Origin: Candidatus Krumholzibacteriia bacterium
Lineage (GTDB): Bacteria > Krumholzibacteriota > Krumholzibacteriia > JAJRXK01
Length of the DNA: 64,000 nucleotides
NCBI GenBank assembly: GCA_035268685.1
Contig: DATFKK010000172.1
Span: forward strand, 1 to 64,000
Direction of reading: 5' to 3'
Below are positions 4,229 to 19,965 of the stretch, one piece after another. The notes under the pieces were generated by a model. That model was not told where the DNA came from. It did no database searches and saw nothing but the letters and a program-made list of their open reading frames with translations. Position numbers and translations under genes: made by a program. Positions within the stretch are counted from its first letter, which is position 1. Each line of letters opens with the position of its first letter.

Positions 4229-4232
<4 letters not shown>
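3846..4232 (-). CDS. PaaI-type hotdog-fold acyl-CoA thioesterase
   Basis: 128 residues, the normal size for a PaaI/YdiI hotdog protein. The active-site region [20 protein letters not shown] (about residues 38-57) has the HGG loop and following helix of the family. The strands after it ([30 protein letters not shown]) are typical. I chose GTG 4232 because it overlaps the thiolase stop codon (GTGA, 4229-4232), which implies translational coupling as the last gene of the operon. The role is probably hydrolysis of an acyl-CoA made by the upstream thiolase, or rescue of CoA from dead-end esters. The substrate cannot be read from sequence. Confidence -1.
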
Positions 4233-5446
<1,214 letters not shown>

Positions 5447-5473
5447 CGTCGTCCTCCCGTACGGCCGAAGGCG

Positions 5474-6850
5474 TCAACCCACCTTGGTCAGGGGCTGGTA
5501 CGCCGAACGGGCCAGCTCGCTCGTCCGGGCGTCCCGGACCTTGCACAGTCCACCCAACAGGGTGTCGGCGAACTCGTCGATCTCGGCCCTGGTCATCGCC
5601 GTCGACAGCATGCCCGAGGCGGTGTTGATCATCATGATGCCGTTGTGGAACAGGTGGTCCAGCAGGATCTCCAGTCGCTCCGATCCCATGGGCCCCACGT
5701 AGTTGGTCCGGTAGTCCTCAGGCGGCTTCGGCTTGAGGTGGATCCGGAACATCGATCCGGTCCCGGTGACGCAGGCCGGAATGTCGGCGATCTCCATGAC
5801 CTCGCGGATCGTTCGCCGCGTGTACTCGCCCAGGACGTTCAGCCGCTCCACCGCGTAGCAGTCCAGTAGCTTCATGGTGGTCAGCCCGGCCGTCATCGAG
5901 ATCGGGTTGGCCGAGAAGGTTCCCGAGTGCGGGAACAGCAGCTCGGGCGCACTCGGATCCATGACGTCCATGATCTCCTTCTTGCCGGCCAACGCACCGA
6001 TCGGGAATCCGCCACCGATCATCTTGCCGAGCGCCGTGAGGTCCACGTCGACCGGATAGCGGTCTTGGGCTCCCCCGACGGCGACACGGAAGGTGATCAC
6101 CTCGTCGAAGACGAGCAACGCTCCGTTCTCGCGCGTCCAGTCCCGCAGGGTGTTCACGAAGTCCGTCGTGGCCGGGATCATACCGATGCGGTGCGGGACG
6201 GGGTCGATGAGCACGCAGGCGATCTCGCCAGCGTGCTGATCCAGGATCGCCTTCGCGCGCAGCGGATCGTTGAAGGGGATGATGATCACGTCCCCGAGAG
6301 CGCTCGCGGGGGTGCCGCGCGCGACCGGCGTGCTCACCGGGTGGTCCAGGGTCCCCCAGTTGGAAGGGTTCGAAGTCTGGCTCACCTCGGCGTAGTCGTA
6401 GAGGCCGTGGTAGGCGCCCTCGCACTTGGCGATCTTCGGGCGGCCGGTGTAGGCACGGGCGGCCTTCAGGCAGCTCATGACGGCCTCGGTGCCCGAGTTG
6501 ACGAAGCGGATCTTCTCGAAGCCAGCCGCACGATCGACCATGAACTCCGCGAACAACAGCTCCTGCTCGGTCGCCATCGTGAACGCGGTGCCCCGCCGGA
6601 GTTGCTCGGACACCGCGTCGACCACTGCCGGATGGGCGTGGCCGTGCACCAGACTGGCCATGTTGTTCGCGAAGTCGATCCGGCAGTTGCCGTCGGCGTC
6701 CCACACCCGGCAACCCTCGCCGCGGACGGCGTACTGCGGGTGTGGCTTACGGAGCACGGTGTTGCGGCTGACGCCGCCGGGGAGGACTCTCTTGGCGCGT
6801 TCGAAGAGCTGCGCGCTACGCGGGTTGTCGTCGCCTTTGTCCTTGTCCAT
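5474..6850 (-). CDS. Class III PLP aminotransferase of the GSA-aminomutase / beta-transaminase group
   Basis: 458 residues. Fold-type I motifs are clear: FVNSGTEAVMSCLKAARAYTGR (PLP phosphate loop), GAYHGLYDY, DEVITF (the PLP-ring Asp), LTALGKMIGGGFPIGA with the Schiff-base Lys, and HSGTFSANPISMTAG. It resembles HemL, but the same subgroup contains the beta-amino-acid transaminases (beta-phenylalanine aminotransferases). The neighbourhood, a radical-SAM aminomutase and a 3-oxoacid CoA-transferase, suggests action on a beta-amino acid to give a beta-keto acid. It could also be the genome's glutamate-1-semialdehyde aminomutase; I cannot exclude that from sequence. ATG 6850 is preceded by GGTGA. 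Confidence is high for the family and low for the substrate. Confidence -1.
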   Translation of the reverse strand: MDKDKGDDNPRSAQLFERAKRVLPGGVSRNTVLRKPHPQYAVRGEGCRVWDADGNCRIDFANNMASLVHGHAHPAVVDAVSEQLRRGTAFTMATEQELLFAEFMVDRAAGFEKIRFVNSGTEAVMSCLKAARAYTGRPKIAKCEGAYHGLYDYAEVSQTSNPSNWGTLDHPVSTPVARGTPASALGDVIIIPFNDPLRAKAILDQHAGEIACVLIDPVPHRIGMIPATTDFVNTLRDWTRENGALLVFDEVITFRVAVGGAQDRYPVDVDLTALGKMIGGGFPIGALAGKKEIMDVMDPSAPELLFPHSGTFSANPISMTAGLTTMKLLDCYAVERLNVLGEYTRRTIREVMEIADIPACVTGTGSMFRIHLKPKPPEDYRTNYVGPMGSERLEILLDHLFHNGIMMINTASGMLSTAMTRAEIDEFADTLLGGLCKVRDARTSELARSAYQPLTKVG

Positions 6851-6921
6851 CACGTCACCAGCCGGTAGGGCCGGTCCAGGATCGGACGTCGACCGCGACA
6901 CCGTGCCGCGGCCGTGCCCGG

Positions 6922-7602
6922 TCACGTCCGGGACAGCTCGTCTCCCTCGATCAGTGGAGCTCCGGTGCGTTCCCGGACCTCCTCCATGGTCACCCCCGGA
7001 GCCAGCTCTGTGACGACGAGCCCGTCCCTGGTCACGTCGATCACGGCGAGGTCGGTGGTGATCCGGTCCACCACGCGCTTGCCGGTCAGGGGATAGGTGC
7101 ACTCGGTGACGATCTTCGGCTCGCCGGTCTTCGTCGTGTGCCTGGTGATCACGTGGATGGTCTTCACGCCGGCGACGAGGTCCATCGCTCCGCCGACGGC
7201 AGGGATGGCGTCGGCCGCTCCGGTCGACCAGTTCGCCAGGTCACCGTTCTGTGCGACCTGCATCGCGCCGAGCACGCAGACGTCGATGTGGCCACCGCGG
7301 ATCATGGTGAAGCTGTCGGCGTGGTGGAAGTAGGCCGCCCCCCGGATCGCGGTGACCGGCTTCTTGCCGGCGTTGATCAGTTCCGGGTCCTCCTCGCCGG
7401 GCTCCGGGTCGCGGCCCATGCCCAGCAGGCCGTTCTCGACGTGGTAGACCACCTCGCGGCCCTCGGGGATGAAGGCCGCCACCAGCTCGGGCATTCCGAT
7501 GCCCAGGTTCACGTAGCTGCCGTCGGGAATGTCCTGCGCCACGCGTCGGGCCATCTCCTCGCGGGTCCAGCCGACGACTCCCTGTTCCTCGGTCGCGCTC
7601 AT
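6922..7602 (-). CDS. pcaJ: 3-oxoacid (3-oxoadipate type) CoA-transferase, subunit B
   Basis: 226 residues, usual length for the beta subunit. The catalytic Glu lies in the conserved HVENGLLGMGRDP block (near residue 50). Further PcaJ/ScoB signatures are GEEDPELINAGKKPVT, YFHHADSFTMIRGGHID and GDLANWSTGAADAIPAVGGAMDLVAG. With subunit A it should transfer CoA from succinyl-CoA to a 3-oxo acid through a gamma-glutamyl-CoA thioester on this subunit. The start overlaps the subunit A stop by four bases (ATGA, 7599-7602). The 71-base gap to the downstream aminotransferase is short enough for one transcript. Confidence -1.
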   Translation of the reverse strand: MSATEEQGVVGWTREEMARRVAQDIPDGSYVNLGIGMPELVAAFIPEGREVVYHVENGLLGMGRDPEPGEEDPELINAGKKPVTAIRGAAYFHHADSFTMIRGGHIDVCVLGAMQVAQNGDLANWSTGAADAIPAVGGAMDLVAGVKTIHVITRHTTKTGEPKIVTECTYPLTGKRVVDRITTDLAVIDVTRDGLVVTELAPGVTMEEVRERTGAPLIEGDELSRT

Positions 7603-8309
7603 GGGTAGCGCACCCCCTCCCGCACCAGTGCAGACTCCTGCAAGGGCTCGGCCACCCGGACGACGCGGTCGACGAAGATCCCGGGCGTGACCACGCACTC
7701 CGGATCGATCTCGCCGGCCTCGACGATCTGTTCGGTCTGGACGATCGTCGTCCCGGCCGCGGTGCACATGATCGGCGCGAAGTTCCGCGCCGTTTTGTTG
7801 TACAGCAGATTGCCGTAGCGGTCGGCCACGCGTGCCTTGACCAGGGCGAAGTCGGCCCGCAGACCCCGCTCCATGAGGTAGGTCCGGCCGTCGAACTCGC
7901 GGGTCTCCTTGCCCTCCTCGAGCACCGTCCCCACGCCGGTGGCCGTGTAGAAGGCGGGGATCCCCGCGCCGCCGGCACGGATGCGCTCGGCGAGCGTGCC
8001 CTGGGGCACCAGCTCGAGTTCGACCTTGCCGGCCCGGTACTGCTCGGGGAAGACCTTCGAGTTCGCCGTGCGCGGATACGAGCAGATCATCTTCGCCACG
8101 CGCTCGTTGTCGATCAGCGCGGCCAGACCGACGTGGCCACTGCCCGTGTTGTTGTTGACCACGGTGAGGCCGCGCGCTCCCTGGTCGATCAGGGCGTGGA
8201 TCAGCTCGATCGGACTTCCGGCCTCGCCGAATCCACCGATCATCACCGTCGCCCCGTCCGGAATGTCGGCCACGGCCTCGGCCACCGAGTTCCATCGCTT
8301 GTCGATCAT
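7599..8309 (-). CDS. pcaI: 3-oxoacid (3-oxoadipate type) CoA-transferase, subunit A
   Basis: 236 residues, full length. The glycine-rich CoA-binding loop GATVMIGGFGEAGSP (residues about 19-33), TVVNNNTGSG, ELELVPQGTLAERIRAGGAGIPAFYT, GKETREFDGR and NKTARNFAPIM are standard for PcaI/ScoA. It forms the heteromer with the overlapping subunit B. The combination with a PcaF-type thiolase completes 3-oxo acid activation and thiolysis. The absence of aromatic ring-cleavage genes leaves open whether 3-oxoadipate is the real substrate. Confidence -1.
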   Translation of the reverse strand: MIDKRWNSVAEAVADIPDGATVMIGGFGEAGSPIELIHALIDQGARGLTVVNNNTGSGHVGLAALIDNERVAKMICSYPRTANSKVFPEQYRAGKVELELVPQGTLAERIRAGGAGIPAFYTATGVGTVLEEGKETREFDGRTYLMERGLRADFALVKARVADRYGNLLYNKTARNFAPIMCTAAGTTIVQTEQIVEAGEIDPECVVTPGIFVDRVVRVAEPLQESALVREGVRYP

Positions 8310-8363
8310 CTCGCCTTTCCGATCCTCGGGACGGCCGGGGCCGCTCCCCCGGCCGGAGTGCCG

Positions 8364-9956
8364 TCAGACGTCGAGCGATTCGCGCGCCGACGCCAGCGCG
8401 CGCGCCAGCTCCGCCTCGATCTCGCGCAGTTCCTCACGGAAGAAGAACTCGTCGCCCTCGAAGGGCGGCAGCAGGTCCACCGTATTCTGCTCCTCGTCGT
8501 ACTGCGCGAGGAAGACCCTGTCCATCCATTCCATGTTCCGGCCCTCGGTGAACTTCAGCGCGAAGGCCTGCTTGCCGTTCACCTCGCAGGTGCCGAGGAT
8601 CGAGATCTTGCCCGCCGACGAGGTCATCGAGATGTAGCGCGTGGGTCGGTAGATCGACGCCAGGTTGCGATGGATCCGGCTGGCGACCTCGTTCACCTCG
8701 GCCAGCGGCGTGGTGAAGTAGTGGTGCTCACCGGTCGGACGCGCGCAGTACATCGAGTGGAAGCCGATGTGCATGGTCCCGAGCAGGTTGGCCAGGTCGA
8801 TCCAGTTCTGTGCGCTGCGCTCGACGTCGGTGCGGCCGTCCGGGCCTTCGAACAGGCTCACGTGCCGCATGATCGGGCTCTGGCTGCGCAGCACCACGCC
8901 GTGGCGCTGCAGGCGGCGGATCGCCGCGATGGTGCTGGGATTGAGGATCTCGCGCGGCGTGCTGAAGTGCGCCATCCAGGCCAGCTGGATGCCGGCGGCG
9001 TGCAGCTCGTCGAACAGGGCGAGCATCTCGTCGTACTCCGGCGAGAGCACACGCTCGGGGCTGTAGCTGAGCAGGCGCGTGCCCAGGCGGATCGCACGCA
9101 CGTGCAGGAAGTCGGGGTCACCCTCGAGCAGCGGCCGGGCGTACTCGCGCAGACGGCTCGCCGGCATGTAGCCCGCGTCGCCGCCGGTGATCAACATGTC
9201 GGTGATCTCGGGGTGCGTGCGCACGTAGCGGTGGACCTGCTCGATCTCCTTCTGCAGGAACATGTCCTCGTCGCCGCGCACCTGCGCGTGGCGGAAGCAA
9301 TAGGTGCAGAAGGCGAAGCAGTTCTGCGTCGAGGTGTCGAAGATCAGCGCGCACTGCGGGTACTTGTGCTGGCTGCCCTCGAGGAATTCCATCTCGCCTT
9401 CGGCGTTCGTGAACAGCGGCTTGTTGAGCTGCTGGTTGCCGTCGTGCGGGTTGGTCGACTCCATGTAGTCGTCGAGGACCTGCTGGCGTTCCTCTTCGGT
9501 CGCCGCCGCCCGGGAGCGCTCGACCAGCTCCCGGCGCAGCATCCCCGGTTGCGGGAAGGTGAGCTGGAACAGCGAATCCGTGGCGAAGTGGTCCCAGTCG
9601 ATGCTGTTGAGCACGTGGCGCGTGACCATGAAGCGGTAGACGCGCACGAAGAGTTCGCGCTCCTCGACGTGACCGATGTGGATGCCGGCGTCCTCGAGGA
9701 CGGTCACCACCTCGCGCAGGCCCTCGAGGCCGCGGTACTGTTCCTTGTCGCGGAACAGGAAGGGACGCGTCTCGAGCAGGCCCGACGACTCCGGGTACTG
9801 GGCGTGCACCCGGCTCAGCAGACCCTGCGGCAGCAGGTCCTCGCGCTCGATGATCGCCCGGACCTCGTCGGAGTACCGGTAGCGATCGAGCATCCGGTCG
9901 ATGTCCTCACGGGTGACGGCGGCCGTGGTCGGGGCCATGGTCTCGGGTGCACTCAC
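8364..9956 (-). CDS. Radical SAM amino acid 2,3-aminomutase (KamA family), lysine-binding Asp residues not conserved
   Basis: 530 residues from GTG 9956, which has GGGGGA seven bases upstream; ATG 9938 has no such site. The radical SAM cluster motif CFAFCTYC (CxxxCxxC, near residues 211-218) is intact. It is followed by DMLITGGDA as in lysine 2,3-aminomutase. The PLP-Lys is probably in SSAGKISIL (near 447). In the Clostridium lysine enzyme two Asp residues hold the substrate epsilon-amine. The corresponding segments here read YCARPTG and YISMTSSAGK, without those Asp residues, so lysine is an unlikely substrate. The enzyme should move an amino group from C2 to C3 of an alpha-amino acid. It is first in the operon with the CoA-transferase, aminotransferase, thiolase and thioesterase. 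Confidence -1.
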   Translation of the reverse strand: MSAPETMAPTTAAVTREDIDRMLDRYRYSDEVRAIIEREDLLPQGLLSRVHAQYPESSGLLETRPFLFRDKEQYRGLEGLREVVTVLEDAGIHIGHVEERELFVRVYRFMVTRHVLNSIDWDHFATDSLFQLTFPQPGMLRRELVERSRAAATEEERQQVLDDYMESTNPHDGNQQLNKPLFTNAEGEMEFLEGSQHKYPQCALIFDTSTQNCFAFCTYCFRHAQVRGDEDMFLQKEIEQVHRYVRTHPEITDMLITGGDAGYMPASRLREYARPLLEGDPDFLHVRAIRLGTRLLSYSPERVLSPEYDEMLALFDELHAAGIQLAWMAHFSTPREILNPSTIAAIRRLQRHGVVLRSQSPIMRHVSLFEGPDGRTDVERSAQNWIDLANLLGTMHIGFHSMYCARPTGEHHYFTTPLAEVNEVASRIHRNLASIYRPTRYISMTSSAGKISILGTCEVNGKQAFALKFTEGRNMEWMDRVFLAQYDEEQNTVDLLPPFEGDEFFFREELREIEAELARALASARESLDV

Positions 9957-10312
9957 GGTGGTTCCCCCAGGGTCGGGTTCTCGATGGGCGCACGCCGCGC
10001 TGCCCCTCCGACCCGGGAACGGTGTGGGGCACGTCGAGCCGCGGCGCCCGATACGGGTTCCATCCAGATCTTCGACACCGCGCCCGCCCGGTGCCACCGA
10101 AGATCGGTCATCGAAGCATCACCGGGAGGAATGAACAGGATCTCGTCCGGCCGCTCGACCCCGAAACGGCCTCCAGGGCGCTCCATACGACTCTCGGCCC
10201 GCGGACGGCAGATCCCGGAGGACCGCCTGGAGGTCGGAGAGATCACAACTTCGATTCCGTCAGCGCATCGAGAGGCCCCGTTCGACAGGACGCCGCGTCC
10301 GCCGAGCGCCGG
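9957..10312. other. 356-base intergenic region upstream of the aminomutase operon
   Basis: This is the longest gap in the first 18 kb. It must hold the promoter of the minus-strand aminomutase operon and the 3' end of the minus-strand CDP-alcohol phosphatidyltransferase transcript. GGGAGGAATGAAC at about 10127 looks like a ribosome site plus ATG on the plus strand, but the short frame behind it matches nothing I know. A minus-strand frame ending close to the aminomutase start is also unconvincing. I see no clear -10/-35 pair or terminator. Confidence -1.
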
Positions 10313-11056
10313 TCACCCACGTTCGCCCAGTCGGCGGGCGATCCACACGGTGCGAAACACTGCCGTACCCGTCGTGCCCACGGCGAGGACGGCCAGAACG
10401 CCGACGGTGAGCGCTCCCGTGTCCCGACCGAGGAGGAGGTGCGACAGCGTGGGATCGAGCACGGGACCGAGCCCGAGCAGCAACATGCGCTCGGCTCGCT
10501 GCAGGACGCCGAGCTTGCACAGCACCCCCAGGCTCTCTCCGCGCGCGCGGGCGTAGCTGACCATGAGCGAACCACCCAACGCGATCACCGCGAGGACCAC
10601 ACCGGGACCCGACCCGTAGAAGACCACCAGGCCGACGAACACGGCCAACTCCGCGAACCGATCGAGGGTGGAGTCGATGAAGGCGCCCGCGTCCGACACC
10701 AATCCACGGCGGCGGGCCACGTCCCCGTCGAGGACGTCGGCGATCCCACTCAGCAGGATCAGCGCCCCTCCGACCGGCAGATGGCCGAGGCCGAATGCCA
10801 CGCCCGACGCGATACCACCCGCAAGACCGAGAAGGTTGAAGACGAATGGGCTCGCCCCGGAAGCGAATGCCGCCCATCGCACCGGGCGCAGCGCCCAGTA
10901 GAACCAGTCGCGCACGAAGAAGCCGAGTACGAACGACCCGCCACGTCCCGTGGCGTCCCTCCCCCGGGCTCGGCCCGCAGCGCTGAAACGGTACGCCGCC
11001 ATGCTCAACAGCGAGAGTCCGACCAGGCTCGTCACGACCACGATCTCGGGTCTCAT
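10313..11056 (-). CDS. CDP-alcohol phosphatidyltransferase family membrane enzyme
   Basis: 247 residues. The family motif DG-x2-AR-x8-G-x3-D-x3-D is perfect: DGDVARRRGLVSDAGAFIDSTLD (near residues 107-129). Several hydrophobic helices surround it. These enzymes exchange CMP of a CDP-linked lipid or alcohol for another alcohol (glycerol phosphate, inositol phosphate, serine and others). The exact acceptor cannot be assigned. The start ATG overlaps the stop of the Tam41-like gene (ATGA, 11053-11056). That gene is predicted to make CDP-diacylglycerol, so the two probably act consecutively at the inner membrane. Confidence -1.
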   Translation of the reverse strand: MRPEIVVVTSLVGLSLLSMAAYRFSAAGRARGRDATGRGGSFVLGFFVRDWFYWALRPVRWAAFASGASPFVFNLLGLAGGIASGVAFGLGHLPVGGALILLSGIADVLDGDVARRRGLVSDAGAFIDSTLDRFAELAVFVGLVVFYGSGPGVVLAVIALGGSLMVSYARARGESLGVLCKLGVLQRAERMLLLGLGPVLDPTLSHLLLGRDTGALTVGVLAVLAVGTTGTAVFRTVWIARRLGERG

Positions 11057-12045
11057 CTCTCGTCTCCGGGCGACATGGACTCGCGGCGCGCGCGGCGCAA
11101 CGCGCGGAGCACGCGAAAGAGCTTCGGCCACAACAACACCAGCGGCCAGCGGCGTTCGGCCGGTCGGATCTCGAGTTCGAGACCGGTCCGTCGCCGCAGC
11201 TTCCGCACGATGTAGTCGAGCCAGTCGTCGTAGGTGAAGAGATATTTCGACCACCGCAACGTGGCACGGATTCGCGAGCGCCGGAAATACCACGCCCAGC
11301 GCAGGCGTGCCACCCGTGATACGGCGCGGGTCCGCACGAAGTGATCACCGGCGACGACCACCCCGTGTTCGGGTCCATGACGGCTGATCAGATCGCGATA
11401 GAGCGGCACGAGCTGGTGCTCCTGGGCGGAGAAGACCTCTCGGACCCGCTCCCCTCGTTCCGGCCGGATCTCGCCCGCGTACGAGACTCGCAGCATGTGC
11501 TCGCAGTAGGTGCGGGCGTCGAACTCCCGGGGTAGGTCGAGCGGAACCCAGCACAGCGTCTCCACCCGCGCACGCGTCACGGCGGTCATGAGCGATCGCA
11601 GCACGGCGGACTCACGGACGAAGACGAACTCGACCCGCTGGGACAAGCGGCCCTTGCAGAAATGATCCGCTGACCGGCTCGAGAGTGCCCTCTCCAGGCC
11701 TTCCCGGGTGACCACGAAGCACTTCGCTCCGGCCCCCTCCACCGCTGGAGGTCGCACCGAGATCACGTTCGGTGTCAACCAGCGGTTCAGCACGGATAGC
11801 GTGAAGGCCGATCGCTGGACCATCCCCCGCTCACGAAGCCTTCCGTAGAACGACCGCGTGCTGTCGACGACCACGAAGAGGTCGGTCGCACTGTGTGGAT
11901 CCGGCGATGTGCCGAGCAAGCGCGACCCGAAGAGGATCACGGCCGCGAGCGTCGGCCCCGATGCACGTGACAGGTACTCGACCTGGGCGGCGACTTCGTC
12001 CGTCGGAACGAAGAGCTCGGGCCGAGCTCGGGAACCGGGATCCAT
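11053..12045 (-). CDS. Tam41-like phosphatidate cytidylyltransferase (CDP-diacylglycerol synthase)
   Basis: 330 residues. An N-terminal nucleotidyltransferase core is visible (residues about 29-60: AAVILFGSRLLG, then DLFVVVD with the metal-binding acidic residue). The C-terminal half matches the mitochondrial Tam41/TAMM41 pattern: CFVVTREGLERAL, HFCKGRLSQRVEFV, VSYAGEIRPERGERVREVF, LVPLYRDLI. Tam41 converts phosphatidate plus CTP to CDP-diacylglycerol and is unrelated to bacterial CdsA. It sits between a PlsC-type acyltransferase (phosphatidate maker, 31 bases upstream) and a CDP-alcohol phosphatidyltransferase (user), which fits exactly. ATG 12045 is chosen because upstream in-frame codons run inside the acyltransferase. 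Remote assignment, made from memory of family motifs. Confidence -1.
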   Translation of the reverse strand: MDPGSRARPELFVPTDEVAAQVEYLSRASGPTLAAVILFGSRLLGTSPDPHSATDLFVVVDSTRSFYGRLRERGMVQRSAFTLSVLNRWLTPNVISVRPPAVEGAGAKCFVVTREGLERALSSRSADHFCKGRLSQRVEFVFVRESAVLRSLMTAVTRARVETLCWVPLDLPREFDARTYCEHMLRVSYAGEIRPERGERVREVFSAQEHQLVPLYRDLISRHGPEHGVVVAGDHFVRTRAVSRVARLRWAWYFRRSRIRATLRWSKYLFTYDDWLDYIVRKLRRRTGLELEIRPAERRWPLVLLWPKLFRVLRALRRARRESMSPGDER

Positions 12046-12076
12046 TCGACCGTCTCTCGTCAGGCAACCCGGCGAG

Positions 12077-12976
12077 TCATCGAGACCCGCCGGGTGCTTC
12101 GGAATCCGCCGACCCTCGCAGTCCGGCGAGACCCTCGACCATCTCCACGTGCATTCGATCGGAGAACTCCGAGGCCGTCTCCACGGTCGGGTCGAACCGG
12201 AACGGACCCAGACGGAGCGCCCGGCCCCGGACCCCGCCGATGTTCGACACGTAGTCGGCGAGCCGGCCGCAGCGCCAGAATCCGTCGACCACCAGTACGT
12301 GGGTCTCCCAGGTCCGCTGCTCGAGGATCGCCTCGAGCCCACCTCTCTTGAACGGTCGAATCCCGCCGTCCCGAGTGCGGTGTCCCTCGGGGAACAGCAC
12401 CATGGGCCGCTCGGCGGAGCGGGCCACTTCGGCGAGACGGTCGACCTGTTCCCTCGTTCGCGATCCCGGCTCCACCAACGGCATGTCGTACAGCCGCAAC
12501 ATGTGGGAAACCAAGGGAATCCCCCGAGCGTAGCGTCGTCTGGTCACGATCAGGGGCGAGCGATCCCGCACCGCGAGAATGCCGAGGGGTATGTCCAGCA
12601 GGGACTGATGATTCATGAGGATGAGCGTCCCGGTGGTACCTCGCACCGGCGCGGGCACCTCGATCCGGGCCCCGGCGACCACTCCGACCACACCTCGCAG
12701 GATCAGCGCGGCCACCCCGCGCATCCAGACATACAGGATCCGGTCACGGGCGCCCGGCCGAATCCGTATCCATCCAGTCACGATGATCCGTTGAATCAAG
12801 TCGGTGACAAGAAATATGATGGCCGCCGTGAAGAGTGAGAAGGCTCCGCGCAGTCGCAATGGTTCGATCCTGCTCCGAGCTCCGGAACTCGACGTCGAAT
12901 CAGGCCCTCTCCGGCACCGGTGATCGTCCTCGAGCGCCTCGTGCTTCCCACGAGAGAAGGATATTTGGGCAGCCAT
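12077..12976 (-). CDS. 1-acylglycerol-3-phosphate O-acyltransferase-like protein (PlsC family)
   Basis: Up to 299 residues. Two membrane-leaning segments (FSLFTAAIIFLVTDLIQ and VAALILRGVVGVVAG) precede the acyltransferase motifs NHQSLLD (HX4D) and LFPEGHRTRDGG (FPEGxR). Expected role: acylation of lysophosphatidate or another lysolipid to give phosphatidate for the downstream Tam41-like enzyme. The start is uncertain. ATG 12976 falls on the same CATG as the divergent synthase start at 12975. A TTG near 12861, with GCAGGA eight bases upstream, would give a shorter protein beginning at the first hydrophobic segment and would free about 110 bases for the divergent promoters. Confidence -1.
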   Translation of the reverse strand: MAAQISFSRGKHEALEDDHRCRRGPDSTSSSGARSRIEPLRLRGAFSLFTAAIIFLVTDLIQRIIVTGWIRIRPGARDRILYVWMRGVAALILRGVVGVVAGARIEVPAPVRGTTGTLILMNHQSLLDIPLGILAVRDRSPLIVTRRRYARGIPLVSHMLRLYDMPLVEPGSRTREQVDRLAEVARSAERPMVLFPEGHRTRDGGIRPFKRGGLEAILEQRTWETHVLVVDGFWRCGRLADYVSNIGGVRGRALRLGPFRFDPTVETASEFSDRMHVEMVEGLAGLRGSADSEAPGGSR

Positions 12977-14348
12977 GAAACCGTCAAGGATCCCCTCCCG
13001 ATACGAGCCGCCCGATTCGGCGGTCGAGTCCAACGCATCCGCCCCCGGCGCGGCCGGCCAGGACGCCGTACCGACGCCCGACGACGAGGATCGCGCGCGC
13101 CGGTTCCAGGACTACGACTACAGCAACTTCTACTCGGGCACAGGGAACGATCCCTTCGACATGCTCGAGCCCTTCGACGCGTGGTGGCAATGGGCGCGGC
13201 CGGCGGGGTACTACCAGTTCGGCCTCCCGATGCGCACGGCACCCGGAACGAGGGTGGACGTCGACGAGACCAAGAATCACACCACCCTGAAGGGTCTCGT
13301 GAACCTGGCCAGCTACAACTACCTGGGTCTCTCCTACCGCCCGGAGGTGATCGAAGCCTCGGTCGACGCCGTACGCAGGTACGGCCTCGGCGCGTCCGGG
13401 TCTCCGATCCTGAGCGGCAACCTCGATCTGCACGAACGGCTGCGTGAGAACCTCGCCCGCTTCAAGGCGAAGGAGGAGGTCCTGCTGTTCCCGTCGGGTT
13501 ATGCTGCGAATCTGGGACTCATCGCCGGCCTGATGCGCGCGGGAGACCTGGTGGTGGCCGACCAGTACTCGCACACGAGCATCATCGATGGAATCATCCT
13601 CTCACGCGCCAAGGCTCGATTCTTCCGCCACAACGACGCCGACGACCTGGACCGCAAACTCGGTCGCGCCGATGGCAAGAAGCTCGTGGTGGTCGAGGGC
13701 GTCTACTCGATGGACGGCGATCTCGCTCGGCTGCCCGAGATCGTGGAGGTCGCTCGCAAGCACGGTGCGCGCATCCTCATCGACGAGGCGCACTCCGGCT
13801 TCCTCTTCGGAGAGAACGGCCGTGGGGTCGCGGAGCACTTCGGCCTCGACGACGAGGTCGACATCCATCTCGGAACCTTTTCCAAGAGCCTCGGGGGCAT
13901 GGGTGGCTTCGTTGCGGGCTCGACCCAGCTCATCAATTATCTTCGGGGGTTCGCGCGTTCGCGTGTGTTCTCCTGTGCGATCGCCCCCGGCGTCGTGGCC
14001 GGACTCGACCGGGCACTCGACATCGCTCGCGCCGAGCCCGAGCTCCGGTTCGTGCTCCACGACAACGCCGACTTCCTCCGCAATCGTCTGAGAGACGCCG
14101 GGGTCGACGTGGGCCTGTCGGAGTCGCAGGTGATTCCGATTCTGATCCGCGACGACGAGCGGATCTTCTCGATCGTCGAGGACCTTCTCCACGAGGGCGT
14201 GTACCTGAATCCGGTTCGCTATCCCGCCGTGGGAAAACACCGATCGCGGGTGCGGATCTCCGTCTCGGCGGCTCACACGCGCGCCGAGCTGGCCGAAGCG
14301 GCCGATGTCATCACTCACGTGCTGCGCAGGTACGGGCTATGCAATTGA
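12975..14348 (+). CDS. Alpha-oxoamine synthase, serine palmitoyltransferase / KAPA synthase-like
   Basis: 457 residues. PLP-dependent family II aminotransferase fold: LASYNYLGLS, GASGSPILSGNLDLHERLRE, DEAHSGFLFGENGRG, and the Schiff-base Lys in LGTFSKSLGGMGGFVAG. An N-terminal extension of about 100 residues rich in aromatic residues (YDYSNFYSG, PFDAWWQWARPAGYYQF) is unlike biotin-pathway BioF and more like the lipid-making members. The enzyme condenses an amino acid with an acyl-CoA or acyl-ACP and releases CO2. It begins a five-gene operon with a lipid kinase, so I favour a long-chain base or aminolipid product. BioF and CqsA-like roles remain possible. The next gene starts 10 bases before this stop. 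Confidence -1.
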   Translation: MKPSRIPSRYEPPDSAVESNASAPGAAGQDAVPTPDDEDRARRFQDYDYSNFYSGTGNDPFDMLEPFDAWWQWARPAGYYQFGLPMRTAPGTRVDVDETKNHTTLKGLVNLASYNYLGLSYRPEVIEASVDAVRRYGLGASGSPILSGNLDLHERLRENLARFKAKEEVLLFPSGYAANLGLIAGLMRAGDLVVADQYSHTSIIDGIILSRAKARFFRHNDADDLDRKLGRADGKKLVVVEGVYSMDGDLARLPEIVEVARKHGARILIDEAHSGFLFGENGRGVAEHFGLDDEVDIHLGTFSKSLGGMGGFVAGSTQLINYLRGFARSRVFSCAIAPGVVAGLDRALDIARAEPELRFVLHDNADFLRNRLRDAGVDVGLSESQVIPILIRDDERIFSIVEDLLHEGVYLNPVRYPAVGKHRSRVRISVSAAHTRAELAEAADVITHVLRRYGLCN

Positions 14349-15001
14349 CGAAGTACAGGTTCTCGAACGCAATCAATGCCTTCTTCGAGATGCCGACCGA
14401 GACCGCGGCCGAGCTGTTGCCCGACCATCTCCAACCACTCGAGCTACGCCACCAGTCCTCGATCCTCGCGGTGACGGCGTTCCACTTCACCGAGAGCATG
14501 GTCGGCGACTACCACGAGGTCGTTCTCGCAGTGATCGTGCCCCCGATGGTCAAAGCCGCCGATGTCTTTCCGAAGTCGGCCTACTATCCCTTCGTCGTGG
14601 GGACCAGTACGTCGGCCTCTCGCGAGCATGCCATCGAACGGTGGCACCTCCCCCACTACATGGCCGACGTCCATGTCGACCTCGTAGAGAAGGATGGTAC
14701 CGTCGACGTCCGTGTCCGTGACGAAGACAGTCCGATCCTCGACTTCCGGATCACGGCACACAAGTGGTCGATCGTCGACCAGCTGTACCAGTGCTTCATG
14801 ACCGACGACTCGAATCGCTATCGGGTCGACATGCATCTGCACGGTCGCTTCACCGAACACGAAGACGAGCAAGGCCGACTCACGCTCCACGAGCATCCGA
14901 TGACCGAGCTGATCTTCGACCAGGACGTCGCGACACACCCGTTCCGCGAGATGTGGATGAAGGACGGGATGCAGGTCTTCGAAGAGCTGGAAACGATCTA
15001 G
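14339..15001 (+). CDS. Acetoacetate decarboxylase-like protein lacking the catalytic Lys
   Basis: 220 residues with the overall pattern of the acetoacetate decarboxylase (ADC-like) superfamily: LLPDHLQPLEL near the N-terminus, YHEVVLAVIVPPM, YYPFVVGTSTSASREHAIERWHLPHYMADVHVD, and FRITAHKW. In true decarboxylases the position after the Pro is the Schiff-base Lys (PKK or PKY). Here it reads LPHYMAD, so Lys is replaced by His and ordinary decarboxylation through an imine is unlikely. It may bind or modify a 3-keto lipid made by the preceding synthase; that is inference from a 10-base gene overlap and shared operon. Homology call moderate; function unknown. Confidence -1.
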   Translation: MQLTKYRFSNAINAFFEMPTETAAELLPDHLQPLELRHQSSILAVTAFHFTESMVGDYHEVVLAVIVPPMVKAADVFPKSAYYPFVVGTSTSASREHAIERWHLPHYMADVHVDLVEKDGTVDVRVRDEDSPILDFRITAHKWSIVDQLYQCFMTDDSNRYRVDMHLHGRFTEHEDEQGRLTLHEHPMTELIFDQDVATHPFREMWMKDGMQVFEELETI

Positions 15002-15030: not shown

Positions 15031-15927
15031 ATGTCGGTCTTCGTGATCGTCAACCCTGCCGCCGGCCGCGGACGGCGCGAGGGCCGGATCGCCAGTCTTC
15101 GAGCGCTCCTGGAGCGCGCGTTGCCCGACCGACGAGAGGTCTTCACCACGGGCCCCGGCCAGGAAGCCGACCTCGTGGATCACGCACTCACCGAGGGCTA
15201 CGACACGATCGTGGCGATCGGCGGAGACGGCACGTGGAGCCTGGTCGCGGACCGCATTCTGAGATCGGGGCAGCGAGACGTGCGTCTCGGGCTGTTGCCC
15301 GCGGGCACGGGGAACGACTTCGGGAAGTCGCTGGGCATCACGTCCGATCGAAGCGAGCACGTGGTCCGGGCGATCGTCGAACGCCGAACGCGTCGGGTCG
15401 ACGTAGGGCGCGCCGGAGGGCGATACTTCCTGAACGTGGTGGGAGCCGGCTTCGACATCGCCGTGATCGACGATGCGGCCGGTCTGCCTTTCCTGCATGG
15501 TGACGCCCTGTACCGAGCCTCCGCGTTGCGTCAACTCTTCCGCTTTTCGGGTCTCCCGCTGGAGATCCACGCGAACTCCTGCCGGCCACTCGTACTCGAT
15601 CATCTCATGCTGGTGGTCGCCAACGCGAACTACTTCGGCGGATCGTTCCACATCGCGCCGCGTGCCCGACTCGACGACGGCCGTCTCGACGCCGTGAGCA
15701 TCGCCAATGGGGGTGCATTCGAGCGAGCCCGCCTCTTCTCACTCGTCGGCCGAGGGCGACACGAGGGACATCCCAAAGTGATCATCCAACAGGCCTCTCG
15801 CCTCGAGGTGCGGTCCGAGCCGGGTTGGCGCTACGAGATGGACGGCGAAGTCTACACGTGCGAGGGTGGGCGGCTCGAGATCGAGTCGGTTCCCGCCGCG
15901 CTCGAGATCTTCGTACCCGAGTTCTGA
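15031..15927 (+). CDS. Diacylglycerol / sphingosine kinase-family lipid kinase
   Basis: 298 residues, normal for bacterial DgkB/YegS-type kinases. It has the NAD-kinase-like catalytic domain: VIVNPAAGRGR at the N-terminus, the nucleotide-binding VAIGGDGTWSLV (near 60-72), LLPAGTGNDFGKSLG, then a beta-rich C-terminal lobe (FLNVVGAGFDIAV, HLMLVVANANYFGG, YEMDGEVY). It phosphorylates a lipid alcohol such as diacylglycerol, ceramide or a long-chain base. Position after the alpha-oxoamine synthase favours a long-chain base or keto-lipid derivative. ATG 15031 is 29 bases after the previous stop; the ribosome site is weak, which suggests coupling. Confidence -1.
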   Translation: MSVFVIVNPAAGRGRREGRIASLRALLERALPDRREVFTTGPGQEADLVDHALTEGYDTIVAIGGDGTWSLVADRILRSGQRDVRLGLLPAGTGNDFGKSLGITSDRSEHVVRAIVERRTRRVDVGRAGGRYFLNVVGAGFDIAVIDDAAGLPFLHGDALYRASALRQLFRFSGLPLEIHANSCRPLVLDHLMLVVANANYFGGSFHIAPRARLDDGRLDAVSIANGGAFERARLFSLVGRGRHEGHPKVIIQQASRLEVRSEPGWRYEMDGEVYTCEGGRLEIESVPAALEIFVPEF

Positions 15928-15976: not shown

Positions 15977-17212
15977 GTGAGAGCCGTGACCTTCGACGGA
16001 GCGATTCCACGATACCTGACCACGCGGGCAACTGGTCGGATCGCGTCGCGCTGGCTCTCCGGTCCCGGCCGCTGCACACGCCTGCAGGAGGTCCCGCTGC
16101 CCGCACTGCCGGCCGACGACTGGGTCCGGGTTCGCACTCGACTCGGAGGAATCTGCGGGAGCGACCTCGATCTGGTGCGGCTCGACGTCTCCCCTTCGAC
16201 CTCACCCTTCTCTTCGTTCCCCTTCGTCGTCGGACACGAGAACGTGGGCGTGATCCAGGAGGTCGGTCCGGCCGTGACCGGTCTCCGACCGGGAGAACGC
16301 GTGGTGGTGAATCCGCTGCTCTCGTGCGTGCCGCGCGGAATCGAACCGCCGTGCCGTCATTGCGTGGGCGGGCACCCCGCGCGCTGCCAGAACTTCACCG
16401 AAGGCAGGCTCCCGGCCGGAATGCTCCTCGGCACGACGCGATCACTCGGGGGGAGTTGGGGCGACGCCTACGTCGCCCACGTCAGCCAGGTGGTCCGAGT
16501 GCCCGAACAGGTCGGTGATCGAAGCGCGGTCCTGCTCGAGCCGCTCGCAACGGTGTTGTCGCCCGTCCTCGACCACCCTCCCGCCGCCGGTGAGCAGGTA
16601 CTGGTGATCGGGGGCGGCTCCATCGGTCTGCTCGCAACAGCCGCTCTCCGCACGGTCGCCCCCGAAGCCCGGGTCACCGTGCTCGCCCGGCACCGTTTCC
16701 AGGCCGAACACGCCGAACGCATGGGGGCCCATCACATCGTGGTGCCCCGCGACGCGGACGACTACTTCCGCTCGCTCTCGGACCTCTCGGGTGGTCGCCT
16801 GTTGCACCCCATCCTCGGCCCACGCGTCCACGTGGGTGGATTCGACCACAGCTACGTTTGCGTCGGGAACTCCGGGGCGGTCGACGACGCGCTCCGGTTC
16901 ACGCAGGCGGGCGGACACGTGGTCCTACTGGGCAACGTCTCGCGACTCCCGAAGGTCGACTGGACACCGCTGTGGATGAAGGAGCTCACGATCCGCGGCA
17001 GCCTCTGCTACGGTCACCATCCCCACGGCGGCACGACCCGGCACGCTTTCGACACCGCAATGCATCTGCTCACCGAGGGACTCCGCGACACGATCGATCC
17101 ACTCGTCACCCACGTATTCCCCCTCCGTCACTTCCGGGAAGCACTCGCGTACTCGATGTCCAGATCGCGGCATCGAAGTATCAAGGTGGCCTTCGACCTC
17201 ACCGAGCAATGA
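15977..17212 (+). CDS. Zinc-dependent medium-chain dehydrogenase/reductase
   Basis: 411 residues. Catalytic zinc ligands are recognisable in GGICGSDLDLVR (Cys, near 55) and VVGHENVG (His-Glu). A structural-zinc lobe with Cys residues follows (PPCRHCVGGHPARCQNF). The Rossmann motif is VLVIGGGSIGLLATA. C-terminal features (GGHVVLLGNV, LTIRGSLCYG) are typical of sorbitol or threonine dehydrogenase-like members. GTG 15977 has GGAGG ten bases upstream. In this operon it may reduce the 3-keto group left by the alpha-oxoamine synthase, a job usually done by short-chain reductases. Alternatively it makes a polyol head group. The substrate is not predictable from sequence. Confidence -1.
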   Translation: MRAVTFDGAIPRYLTTRATGRIASRWLSGPGRCTRLQEVPLPALPADDWVRVRTRLGGICGSDLDLVRLDVSPSTSPFSSFPFVVGHENVGVIQEVGPAVTGLRPGERVVVNPLLSCVPRGIEPPCRHCVGGHPARCQNFTEGRLPAGMLLGTTRSLGGSWGDAYVAHVSQVVRVPEQVGDRSAVLLEPLATVLSPVLDHPPAAGEQVLVIGGGSIGLLATAALRTVAPEARVTVLARHRFQAEHAERMGAHHIVVPRDADDYFRSLSDLSGGRLLHPILGPRVHVGGFDHSYVCVGNSGAVDDALRFTQAGGHVVLLGNVSRLPKVDWTPLWMKELTIRGSLCYGHHPHGGTTRHAFDTAMHLLTEGLRDTIDPLVTHVFPLRHFREALAYSMSRSRHRSIKVAFDLTEQ

Positions 17213-17766
17213 ACGCACTTCGCCGGGCTCTCTTCTCTCGGTTCGTCTGGATGCTCGTGGGCCTGTTCGCCCTGACGATTCTCGCGGACCTCTGGCTCGA
17301 TGCGGAAGGCGGCGCTTCGGTCGTGGTGGAGAGATGGGGAGTCTGGGCACCCATCGCCGCATTCCTGCTGAAGACACTCACCACGATGACACCGATCGGT
17401 GCCGTGGCGCTGGCCGTGTTCACCGGAGTGATCTTCCCCCTGTGGCTGGCGATCCTGATCAATCTCGCCAGTGGGATCGTCGGGGGCATCGGGATGTACT
17501 ACGTGTGGCGGCAAGGGAACCACGAGTTCGACCTACAGGCTCGTCTCGAGACCCTTCCCGGGTGGATGCGGCGCTACGCTGCCGACAACCTTCTGTTCCT
17601 GATCCTCTTGCGCTTCCTGCCGTGGGCAGGCGGCGGCCTCGCCGACATGCTGGCCGGCGCGCATCGCATCCCCCTGCGGACACAGGTCTGGAGCCTCGTC
17701 CTCGGGTACCTTCCCGGTTCGGTGATCTACGCGCTCATGGGCACCGGACTCCTCCGTCTGACCTGA
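17209..17766 (+). CDS. Small VTT/TVP38-type integral membrane protein
   Basis: 185 residues with at least four hydrophobic segments: FVWMLVGLFALTILADLWL, a re-entrant-like LKTLTTMTPIGAVALAVFTGVIFPLW, ILINLASGIVGGIGMYY, and SLVLGYLPGSVIYALMG. RFLPWAGGGLADMLAGA resembles the conserved loop of VTT-domain (DedA/TMEM41B-like) proteins, some of which move lipids between bilayer leaflets. The start ATG overlaps the dehydrogenase stop (ATGA, 17209-17212), so it is last in the lipid operon. Lipid transport across the inner membrane would fit but is inference. Confidence -1.
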   Translation: MNALRRALFSRFVWMLVGLFALTILADLWLDAEGGASVVVERWGVWAPIAAFLLKTLTTMTPIGAVALAVFTGVIFPLWLAILINLASGIVGGIGMYYVWRQGNHEFDLQARLETLPGWMRRYAADNLLFLILLRFLPWAGGGLADMLAGAHRIPLRTQVWSLVLGYLPGSVIYALMGTGLLRLT

Positions 17767-18780: not shown

Positions 18781-18910
18781 GTGTCAGCTTGTGACCGCTG
18801 ACGACGCGCAATGTCAGCCGCTGGAGGCTGACATTGGCAATTGTCATCCGATATCGGCTGACGAGGCGAGAACCGGGTCATGGACGAAGTATTTCATCGG
18901 GCCACGACGC
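18781..18910. repeat. Three-hairpin repeat, copy 1
   Basis: A 130-base unit, collinear without gaps with the copy at 19836-19965 and about three quarters identical by hand comparison. It contains three successive inverted repeats built on the same TGTCAGC/GCTGACA stem: around 18782-18802, 18811-18834 (the strongest, with a six-base loop) and 18842-18862. A less conserved 48-base tail follows. Differences between copies cluster in loops while stems are kept, which suggests selection on a structure or a palindromic binding site. No known repeat family is recognised. Confidence -1.
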
Positions 18911-19034: not shown

Positions 19035-19709
19035 CTACACCAGCCGCACCGCCCGCCGACGGTGCCGTCGCAGACCCTGATCGTGGACGGCGAGCGTGAT
19101 CCAGTCGCGCAGGGCGTTCTCGATCGCCCGGAGTTCGTCGTCCTGCGCCCGGTCCAGCGCGCGGTGGACGACCTGCCGCGAACATCCGAGCACGTGGTGC
19201 AGTCCCGCGCGGCCGTGCTGCCTCCGGCGCGCGAGAACGATCTCGTGCTGCCGGGGTGTCCACGAGCGCGTCACGCGGACGTGGGCGCGGGCCAGGCGCT
19301 CGGCCACTCTCTGGTAGGGCTCGAGATGACGGGCGACGAGGGACAGCTGGAGCGGAAGCCCTTCCTCGACCGCATCGGCCGTCGCGTCGCGGAGTGCATC
19401 GACCGGAAGCGTCTCCATCTCGGCCCGCGCGCGCTGGCTCGACGGAAGATCGACGGCTCCGTGCAGTCGGAAGTGGAAGGCCGCCGGCCAGCACACGAGG
19501 TGCAGGGCCGCCACGATGTCGAAGGCGCGTTCGGGCGCGGTCATCCACCCCACGAACAGGTCGTGCTCGGCGACCATGCGGAAGCGCCCGTGCCACCACT
19601 GGGGATGCCGCTCGCCGATCCGCGCGAGCAGGGCACCGGCCCCGGCACGTCGGGTGGGATCGAGGGGCTGGGCGGCGGCTCCGACGAGAAGATGCGTCAG
19701 CGCGTCCAT
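19035..19709 (-). CDS. Orphan helix-turn-helix protein, remotely SatD-like
   Basis: 224 residues from ATG 19709. The C-terminal part (about residues 155-205) reads WTPRQHEIVLARR...HVLGCSRQVVHRALDRAQ, a helix-turn-helix with the layout seen at the end of SatD-family proteins. The middle (RFRMVAEHDLFVGWMTAPERAFDIVAALHL) could match the SatD nucleotide-cyclase-like core. The usual N-terminal GDxxxSR motif is absent. The protein is Arg- and His-rich. It lies alone between two copies of the three-hairpin repeat, so it might bind the TGTCAGC palindromes or be cargo of a small element. Both ideas are speculative. Alternative upstream start codons exist but lack a ribosome site. Confidence -1.
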   Translation of the reverse strand: MDALTHLLVGAAAQPLDPTRRAGAGALLARIGERHPQWWHGRFRMVAEHDLFVGWMTAPERAFDIVAALHLVCWPAAFHFRLHGAVDLPSSQRARAEMETLPVDALRDATADAVEEGLPLQLSLVARHLEPYQRVAERLARAHVRVTRSWTPRQHEIVLARRRQHGRAGLHHVLGCSRQVVHRALDRAQDDELRAIENALRDWITLAVHDQGLRRHRRRAVRLV

Positions 19710-19835
19710 GGATCGCGGAGGCTGTCCGTCGGGTGGCGTCGGGCGACAGTATCGCACGTCCGGCGGGGCGGTGACCAGCCGGCGGGCCGGCGACCGGGCG
19801 GCGCGCGATGACACTCGGAAAAGCGGGGTCGCGGG

Positions 19836-19965
19836 ATGTCAGCCTCGTGGGACTGACAAAGCGAAATGTCAGCCCCTGGAGGCTGACATTCGCAGTTGTC
19901 AGCCGATCCCGGCTGACAATCCGAAAACAGGGTTCTCGAAGAATGGTTTCACCAGCCGACAACGC
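19836..19965. repeat. Three-hairpin repeat, copy 2
   Basis: Direct-orientation copy of the unit at 18781-18910. Its three stems are better preserved than in copy 1: TGTCAG/CTGACA at about 19837-19858, AATGTCAGCC/GGCTGACATT at 19865-19890, and TTGTCAGCCG/CGGCTGACAA at 19896-19919. It sits just upstream of the orphan gene, so any regulator binding here could act on that gene's promoter. Confidence -1.

Follow-up and report, generated by a model that had tools for sequence, protein, structure and literature searches.

A Tam41-like protein encoded in the stretch of DNA analysed here (the window: 64,000 nucleotides of contig DATFKK010000172.1, Candidatus Krumholzibacteriia bacterium, assembly GCA_035268685.1) is put forward, at about an even chance, as a CTP:lipid-phosphate cytidylyltransferase acting on a phosphorylated sphingoid- or ceramide-like lipid, in series with a phosphatidyltransferase that would pass the activated lipid on to inositol phosphate. 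New here is the association of an enzyme of the Tam41 type with a lipid pathway built on an oxoamine synthase and with a partner of the PI-phosphate synthase type. The genes are collected in Table 1.

Table 1. Genes of the two divergent operons (window positions; strand; basis of assignment).
Feature	Positions	Strand	Basis
CDP-alcohol phosphatidyltransferase, PI-phosphate synthase type	10313..11056	-	Pfam CDP-OH_P_transf, 48 bits; full signature
Tam41-like candidate CTP:lipid-phosphate cytidylyltransferase, 330 aa	11053..12045	-	AlphaFold2 fold match; Pfam Tam41 sub-threshold
PlsC-family acyltransferase, NHQSLLD and FPEGxR motifs	12077..12976	-	Pfam Acyltransferase, 54 bits; homologue alignment
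alpha-Oxoamine synthase, own clade	12975..14348	+	Pfam, NCBIfam; co-occurrence; tree
Acetoacetate-decarboxylase-like (ADC-like) protein	14339..15001	+	Pfam ADC, 36.6 bits; homologue alignment
YegS/BmrU-type lipid kinase, ATG at 15031	15031..15927	+	Pfam DAGK_cat and YegS_C; NCBIfam TIGR00147 above cut-off
Zinc-type alcohol dehydrogenase, candidate ketone reductase	15977..17212	+	Pfam; present in 4 of 7 loci
VTT-domain (DedA/TVP38-like) membrane protein	17155..17766	+	Pfam; 2 loci only

On the minus strand the order is acyltransferase, Tam41-like gene and CDP-alcohol phosphatidyltransferase gene, with a gap of 31 bases and then a 4-base ATGA overlap; the operon that an earlier note on this DNA had described in these terms was confirmed by the coordinates and the Pfam matches. 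As called (from 12976), the acyltransferase gene runs into the start codon of the oxoamine synthase gene on the other strand (window 12974-12977). The alignment of homologues shows no conservation over the first 27 to 40 residues of the acyltransferase, and by sequence its start probably lies downstream of 12976 (TTG at 12859, or TTG/GTG at 12799/12781). The plus-strand operon, which the earlier note left out of account, opens with the alpha-oxoamine synthase gene, followed by the genes of the ADC-like protein and the lipid kinase; the true start of the VTT-domain gene is probably located after 17212.

Membership of the middle protein in the Tam41 fold family is well supported by its predicted structure. 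The AlphaFold2 model (input of seven sequences; pLDDT 85.1, pTM 0.83) contains the two-domain Tam41 fold, a nucleotidyltransferase domain and a winged-helix-type domain. Foldseek returned first 7ecd (Tam41 of a Firmicutes bacterium with CTP) and next yeast Tam41; VIA-align gave Z 21.4 (rmsd 3.5, 245 residues aligned, including the second domain) for 7ecd and Z 16.9 for 6ig4 (yeast Tam41), versus Z 7.4 for the best non-Tam41 family, aminoglycoside nucleotidyltransferase. A ten-sequence profile run against the PDB ranked S. pombe Tam41 first (E 0.012). The Pfam Tam41 model (Tam41_Mmp37) scored the window protein at 17.1 bits (E 0.0036), below the cut-off of 24 bits, and matched all seven Krumholzibacteriota family members (best E 4.7e-5); none of the three scanned plasmid homologues was matched. 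Judged by sequence only, the window protein is a weak candidate for Tam41, and the assignment is based on the fold match. The aspartate D55 of the nucleotidyltransferase (NT) fold is invariant in 10 sequences. The usual partner position of D55 is non-acidic, and the strands that follow it (residues 93-97 and 107-113) carry no acidic residue in the window protein; according to PMC11646218, Tam41 keeps only one of the three acidic residues of the NT fold.

Bacterial Tam41 is already known (PDB 7ecd; Kimura et al. 2022, cited through PMC11646218). The 7ecd structure (with CTP and Mg) has the same fold over the 245 aligned residues and likewise a single NT-fold aspartate, but the window protein is only 12% identical to it, stands under the Pfam Tam41 cut-off and is clustered with an oxoamine synthase. 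With mitochondrial Tam41 (S. pombe, PDB 6ig2 and 6ig4) the protein has in common the fold, motifs of the GRL and SYxxEIR types and, by eye, an Arg/Lys-rich C-terminal part; it differs in sequence (about 15% identity), in being without a targeting sequence and, probably, in its lipid phosphate substrate. Viral origin of the gene was considered and rejected, no relatives being present in viral contigs.

The phosphatidyltransferase carries the full DxxDGxxARx8GxxxDxxxD signature. A CKxG and RxER block, with a role in inositol phosphate binding, is present in the window transferase, in its five aligned orthologues and in a second PI-phosphate-synthase-like enzyme of the same genome (contig C28), whereas CKxG is missing from all five proteobacterial transferases checked; the acceptor is therefore probably inositol phosphate, as judged from these motifs. 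The scores against the NCBIfam models of archaetidylinositol-phosphate and PI-phosphate synthase were below cut-off (120.4 bits where 180 are required, and 94.1 where 170 are), and the protein is not classed as a certain equivalog.

The oxoamine synthase belongs to the alpha-oxoamine synthase family (NCBIfam bioF 360 bits, SPT 359 bits, both below the equivalog cut-offs); a conserved extension of about 100 residues is found at its N-terminus. In the tree it forms a clade of its own (100/100) outside the clade (100/97) of ceramide- or CPG-linked synthases, the deeper placement being weak. The tree gives no support to a plain serine palmitoyltransferase, and as the enzyme branches outside the clade of those transferases, a sphingoid product is only a proposal. 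The ADC-like protein was rejected as a classical acetoacetate decarboxylase: the alignment of seven homologues has no invariant lysine that could be the Schiff-base lysine. An invariant HAIERWHLPH motif is present in it.

The Tam41-like gene was found in 7 of 80 Krumholzibacteriota genomes, and exactly the same seven carry the ADC-like gene and an orthologue of the oxoamine synthase at 66-75% identity (co-occurrence of the Tam41-like and oxoamine synthase genes: hypergeometric 3e-10, phylogeny not corrected). The phosphatidyltransferase gene is present in six of them; in the seventh the contig ends inside the Tam41-like gene, and with this one exception the three-gene order is retained in the six other genomes. 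The arrangement of the five-gene core is conserved; the kinase gene adjoins the ADC-like gene in five of the seven loci and is absent beside the cluster in two, and the dehydrogenase gene is found in four. An exact-pattern scan of genome contigs gave matches solely from members of Krumholzibacteriota.

Distant homologues (27% identity) were found in Proteobacteria. With the window protein as query, 72,556 plasmids yielded 15 matching records, all from Pseudomonas or Roseomonas (lowest E 3e-18); the Pseudomonas relative as query added matches in Diaphorobacter and Qipengyuania. Gene context was inspected at six loci (Pseudomonas, three Roseomonas, Diaphorobacter, Qipengyuania). The homologue is clustered with a CDP-alcohol phosphatidyltransferase and a lipid kinase at five of the six, four of these with a serine palmitoyltransferase as well, and the kinase gene directly adjoins it, again, at five of six. 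At four loci (Pseudomonas and all three of Roseomonas) the homologue carries the annotation hypothetical protein and immediately follows the lipid kinase, and these clusters also hold acyl carrier protein (ACP), a CerR-type reductase, an acyl-AMP ligase, nucleotidyltransferases and LptF/LptG. The Diaphorobacter locus has a transferase, a kinase and an acyltransferase near the homologue and no synthase within the stretch examined; the Qipengyuania locus has the kinase-homologue pair only. The window kinase resembles its proteobacterial counterparts in these clusters only distantly (best E 1e-5 over 100 residues) and is no clear orthologue of the ceramide kinase. The window PlsC-like protein was rejected as an orthologue of the Diaphorobacter acyltransferase, no significant similarity being found. 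The Diaphorobacter plasmid, pDCB2, is a conjugative IncP plasmid; its head-group genes of phosphosphingolipid type, the Tam41-like gene among them (locus L066, 11887-12819), adjoin mercury and arsenate resistance genes.

Plasmid loci L060-L063 fit the Caulobacter-type ceramide phosphoglycerate cluster, and the Roseomonas gene order matches that of Caulobacter CC_1159-CC_1163 as described in PMC11324152. In Caulobacter, CC_1160 is a ceramide kinase that makes ceramide-1-phosphate, and CC_1161 (CpgC) is required for the next step; a CDP-DAG-synthase InterPro domain was noted in CC_1161 (PMC11324152), and a nucleotide-activated ceramide was suggested for the pathway (Olea-Ozuna et al. 2024; PMC11324152). 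Later papers, including a preprint of May 2026, state that CpgC acts by an unidentified mechanism. CpgC (CC_1161/CCNA_01219) stands where the plasmid homologues stand in their clusters; from this position and from the domain reported for it we infer that it belongs to the Tam41-like family. The window cluster has a kinase, a Tam41-like gene and an oxoamine synthase but is without the ACP, acyl-AMP ligase, CerR and LptF/G of the Caulobacter cluster, and its head group is probably inositol in place of glycerate. A PI-phosphate-synthase-type transferase near sphingolipid-like genes is likewise a feature of the Bacteroides-type phosphoinositol sphingolipid pathway (BT1523, phosphoinositol dihydroceramide synthase). 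In that pathway phosphatidylinositol donates the head group by exchange, whereas a direct CDP-lipid route is proposed for the window cluster.

The analysis establishes the genes, their conservation, the Tam41 fold and the motifs of the transferase; the reactions of the pathway, its lipid backbone and its head group are inferred as follows. The alpha-oxoamine synthase would condense an acyl thioester with an amino acid, which should be serine for the kinase to find a primary hydroxyl; the zinc-type dehydrogenase would reduce the ketone, the PlsC-like protein would attach a second acyl chain and the YegS-type kinase would phosphorylate the lipid. The Tam41-like protein, presumably a peripheral-membrane enzyme, would convert the lipid phosphate and CTP into CDP-lipid and pyrophosphate, and the PI-phosphate-synthase-type transferase would then join the activated lipid to inositol phosphate, yielding a membrane lipid of a phosphoinositol sphingolipid-like kind. 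Kinase, Tam41-fold enzyme and phosphatidyltransferase would thus form a series from lipid alcohol through lipid phosphate and CDP-lipid to phospholipid, and a lipid backbone supplied by the oxoamine synthase would explain that the two operons were not seen apart. Points against this reading are the place of the oxoamine synthase outside the ceramide-linked synthases, the N-acylation step, to which no gene is assigned, the lack of a ceramide synthase homologue in the window cluster, and the kinase, which is distant and not adjacent at every locus.

In the earlier note phosphatidate was named as the substrate. On such a model the acyltransferase would make phosphatidate and the Tam41-like enzyme CDP-diacylglycerol, from which the partner would supply phosphatidylinositol phosphate as a dedicated pool; the oxoamine operon would belong to a neighbouring sphingolipid pathway, which may use that phosphatidylinositol as head-group donor. 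We hold this main rival to be less likely. The Tam41 enzymes characterised to date use phosphatidate, yeast Tam41 eases the phospholipid defect that loss of CdsA by depletion causes in E. coli, the acyltransferase gene lies within the same operon at all seven loci, and a PAP2 protein of the genome weakly resembles phosphoinositol dihydroceramide synthase. The genome, however, already contains CdsA and another PI-phosphate-synthase-like enzyme, the operon is seen only together with the oxoamine synthase gene, and the proteobacterial homologues are located in phosphosphingolipid clusters, mostly beside a kinase. Phosphatidate is thus not the best-supported choice; a phosphorylated sphingoid- or ceramide-like substrate appears at least as likely on comparative sequence evidence, because the oxoamine operon strictly co-occurs and the homologues stand in phosphosphingolipid clusters, usually beside a lipid kinase.

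Besides CdsA and the enzyme of contig C28, the genome encodes inositol-1-phosphate synthase and, on contig C183 (L025, 2507-6838), a canonical-looking ceramide cluster of a serine-palmitoyltransferase-like synthase, a GNAT ceramide-synthase-like protein, a CerR-like reductase and the PAP2 protein mentioned above. The window genes are therefore second copies. The Tam41-like enzyme was accordingly rejected as the only CDP-lipid synthase of the genome, and a dedicated second CDP-lipid route beside CdsA, as suggested earlier, is a fair reading. A strong ceramide synthase homologue was found in only one of the seven cluster-bearing genomes and was absent or weak in the other six; the window cluster therefore does not appear to depend on a ceramide cluster of the C183 type, for which a role as required partner is not supported (the shortfall is not significant, P 0.12).

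That the three-gene and the divergent operons are functionally unrelated and adjacent by descent alone is very improbable: the adjacency in seven genomes could stem from one event, but the arrangement was kept across three families despite divergence of the proteins to 38-75% identity, and the proteobacterial loci link enzymes of these classes too, arranged differently. Most improbable is that the protein merely resembles Tam41 and belongs with other nucleotidyltransferases (aminoglycoside or tRNA enzymes, or one with a soluble phosphate substrate, e.g. phosphoglycerate). Its N-terminal residues (about 120) are also similar to aminoglycoside nucleotidyltransferases (Z about 7) but the Tam41 match extends over the second domain, K108, R133 and SYxxEIR, all outside the N-terminal core, align with yeast Tam41, and the setting is one of lipid synthesis throughout. 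Another nucleotidyltransferase family, the outcome of structure prediction that had been set against the earlier claim of a Tam41 protein with a nucleotidyltransferase core, was rejected on the fold comparison, in which aminoglycoside enzymes scored far lower.

For the cytidylyltransferase proposed here a wider claim, held somewhat more tentatively, is that a bacterial CTP:ceramide-1-phosphate (or sphingoid-phosphate) cytidylyltransferase of the Tam41 fold exists, that it is the function of CpgC in Caulobacter, and that in Krumholzibacteriota it feeds a PI-phosphate-synthase-type transferase leading to phosphoinositol sphingolipids. If true, phosphoinositol sphingolipids would be reached by way of CDP-ceramide, which is unlike every head-group step known for sphingolipids, and a CDP-lipid logic would be common to sphingolipids and glycerolipids; among 5.39 million open papers searched, none names CDP-ceramide or a synonym. 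The claim bears on the unsolved Caulobacter step from ceramide-1-phosphate to ceramide phosphoglycerate. The window would hold a remote and compact version, in which the candidate cytidylyltransferase is coupled by the 4-base overlap to the transferase, so that activation and transfer could be tested with two or three genes.

Elsewhere in the window, 4229-10097 encodes a thiolase, a class III aminotransferase, probable CoA-transferase subunits and a radical-SAM protein (likely lysine 2,3-aminomutase), which together look like a lysine degradation set; its radical-SAM and aminotransferase genes are absent beside the Tam41-like gene in the other loci. Two 113-base copies (18798-18910 and 19853-19965; 77% identical) are built from TGTCAGCC...GGCTGACA palindromes. 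The unassigned open reading frame between them, on the minus strand at 19035-19814, has no Pfam match and may be REP-associated.
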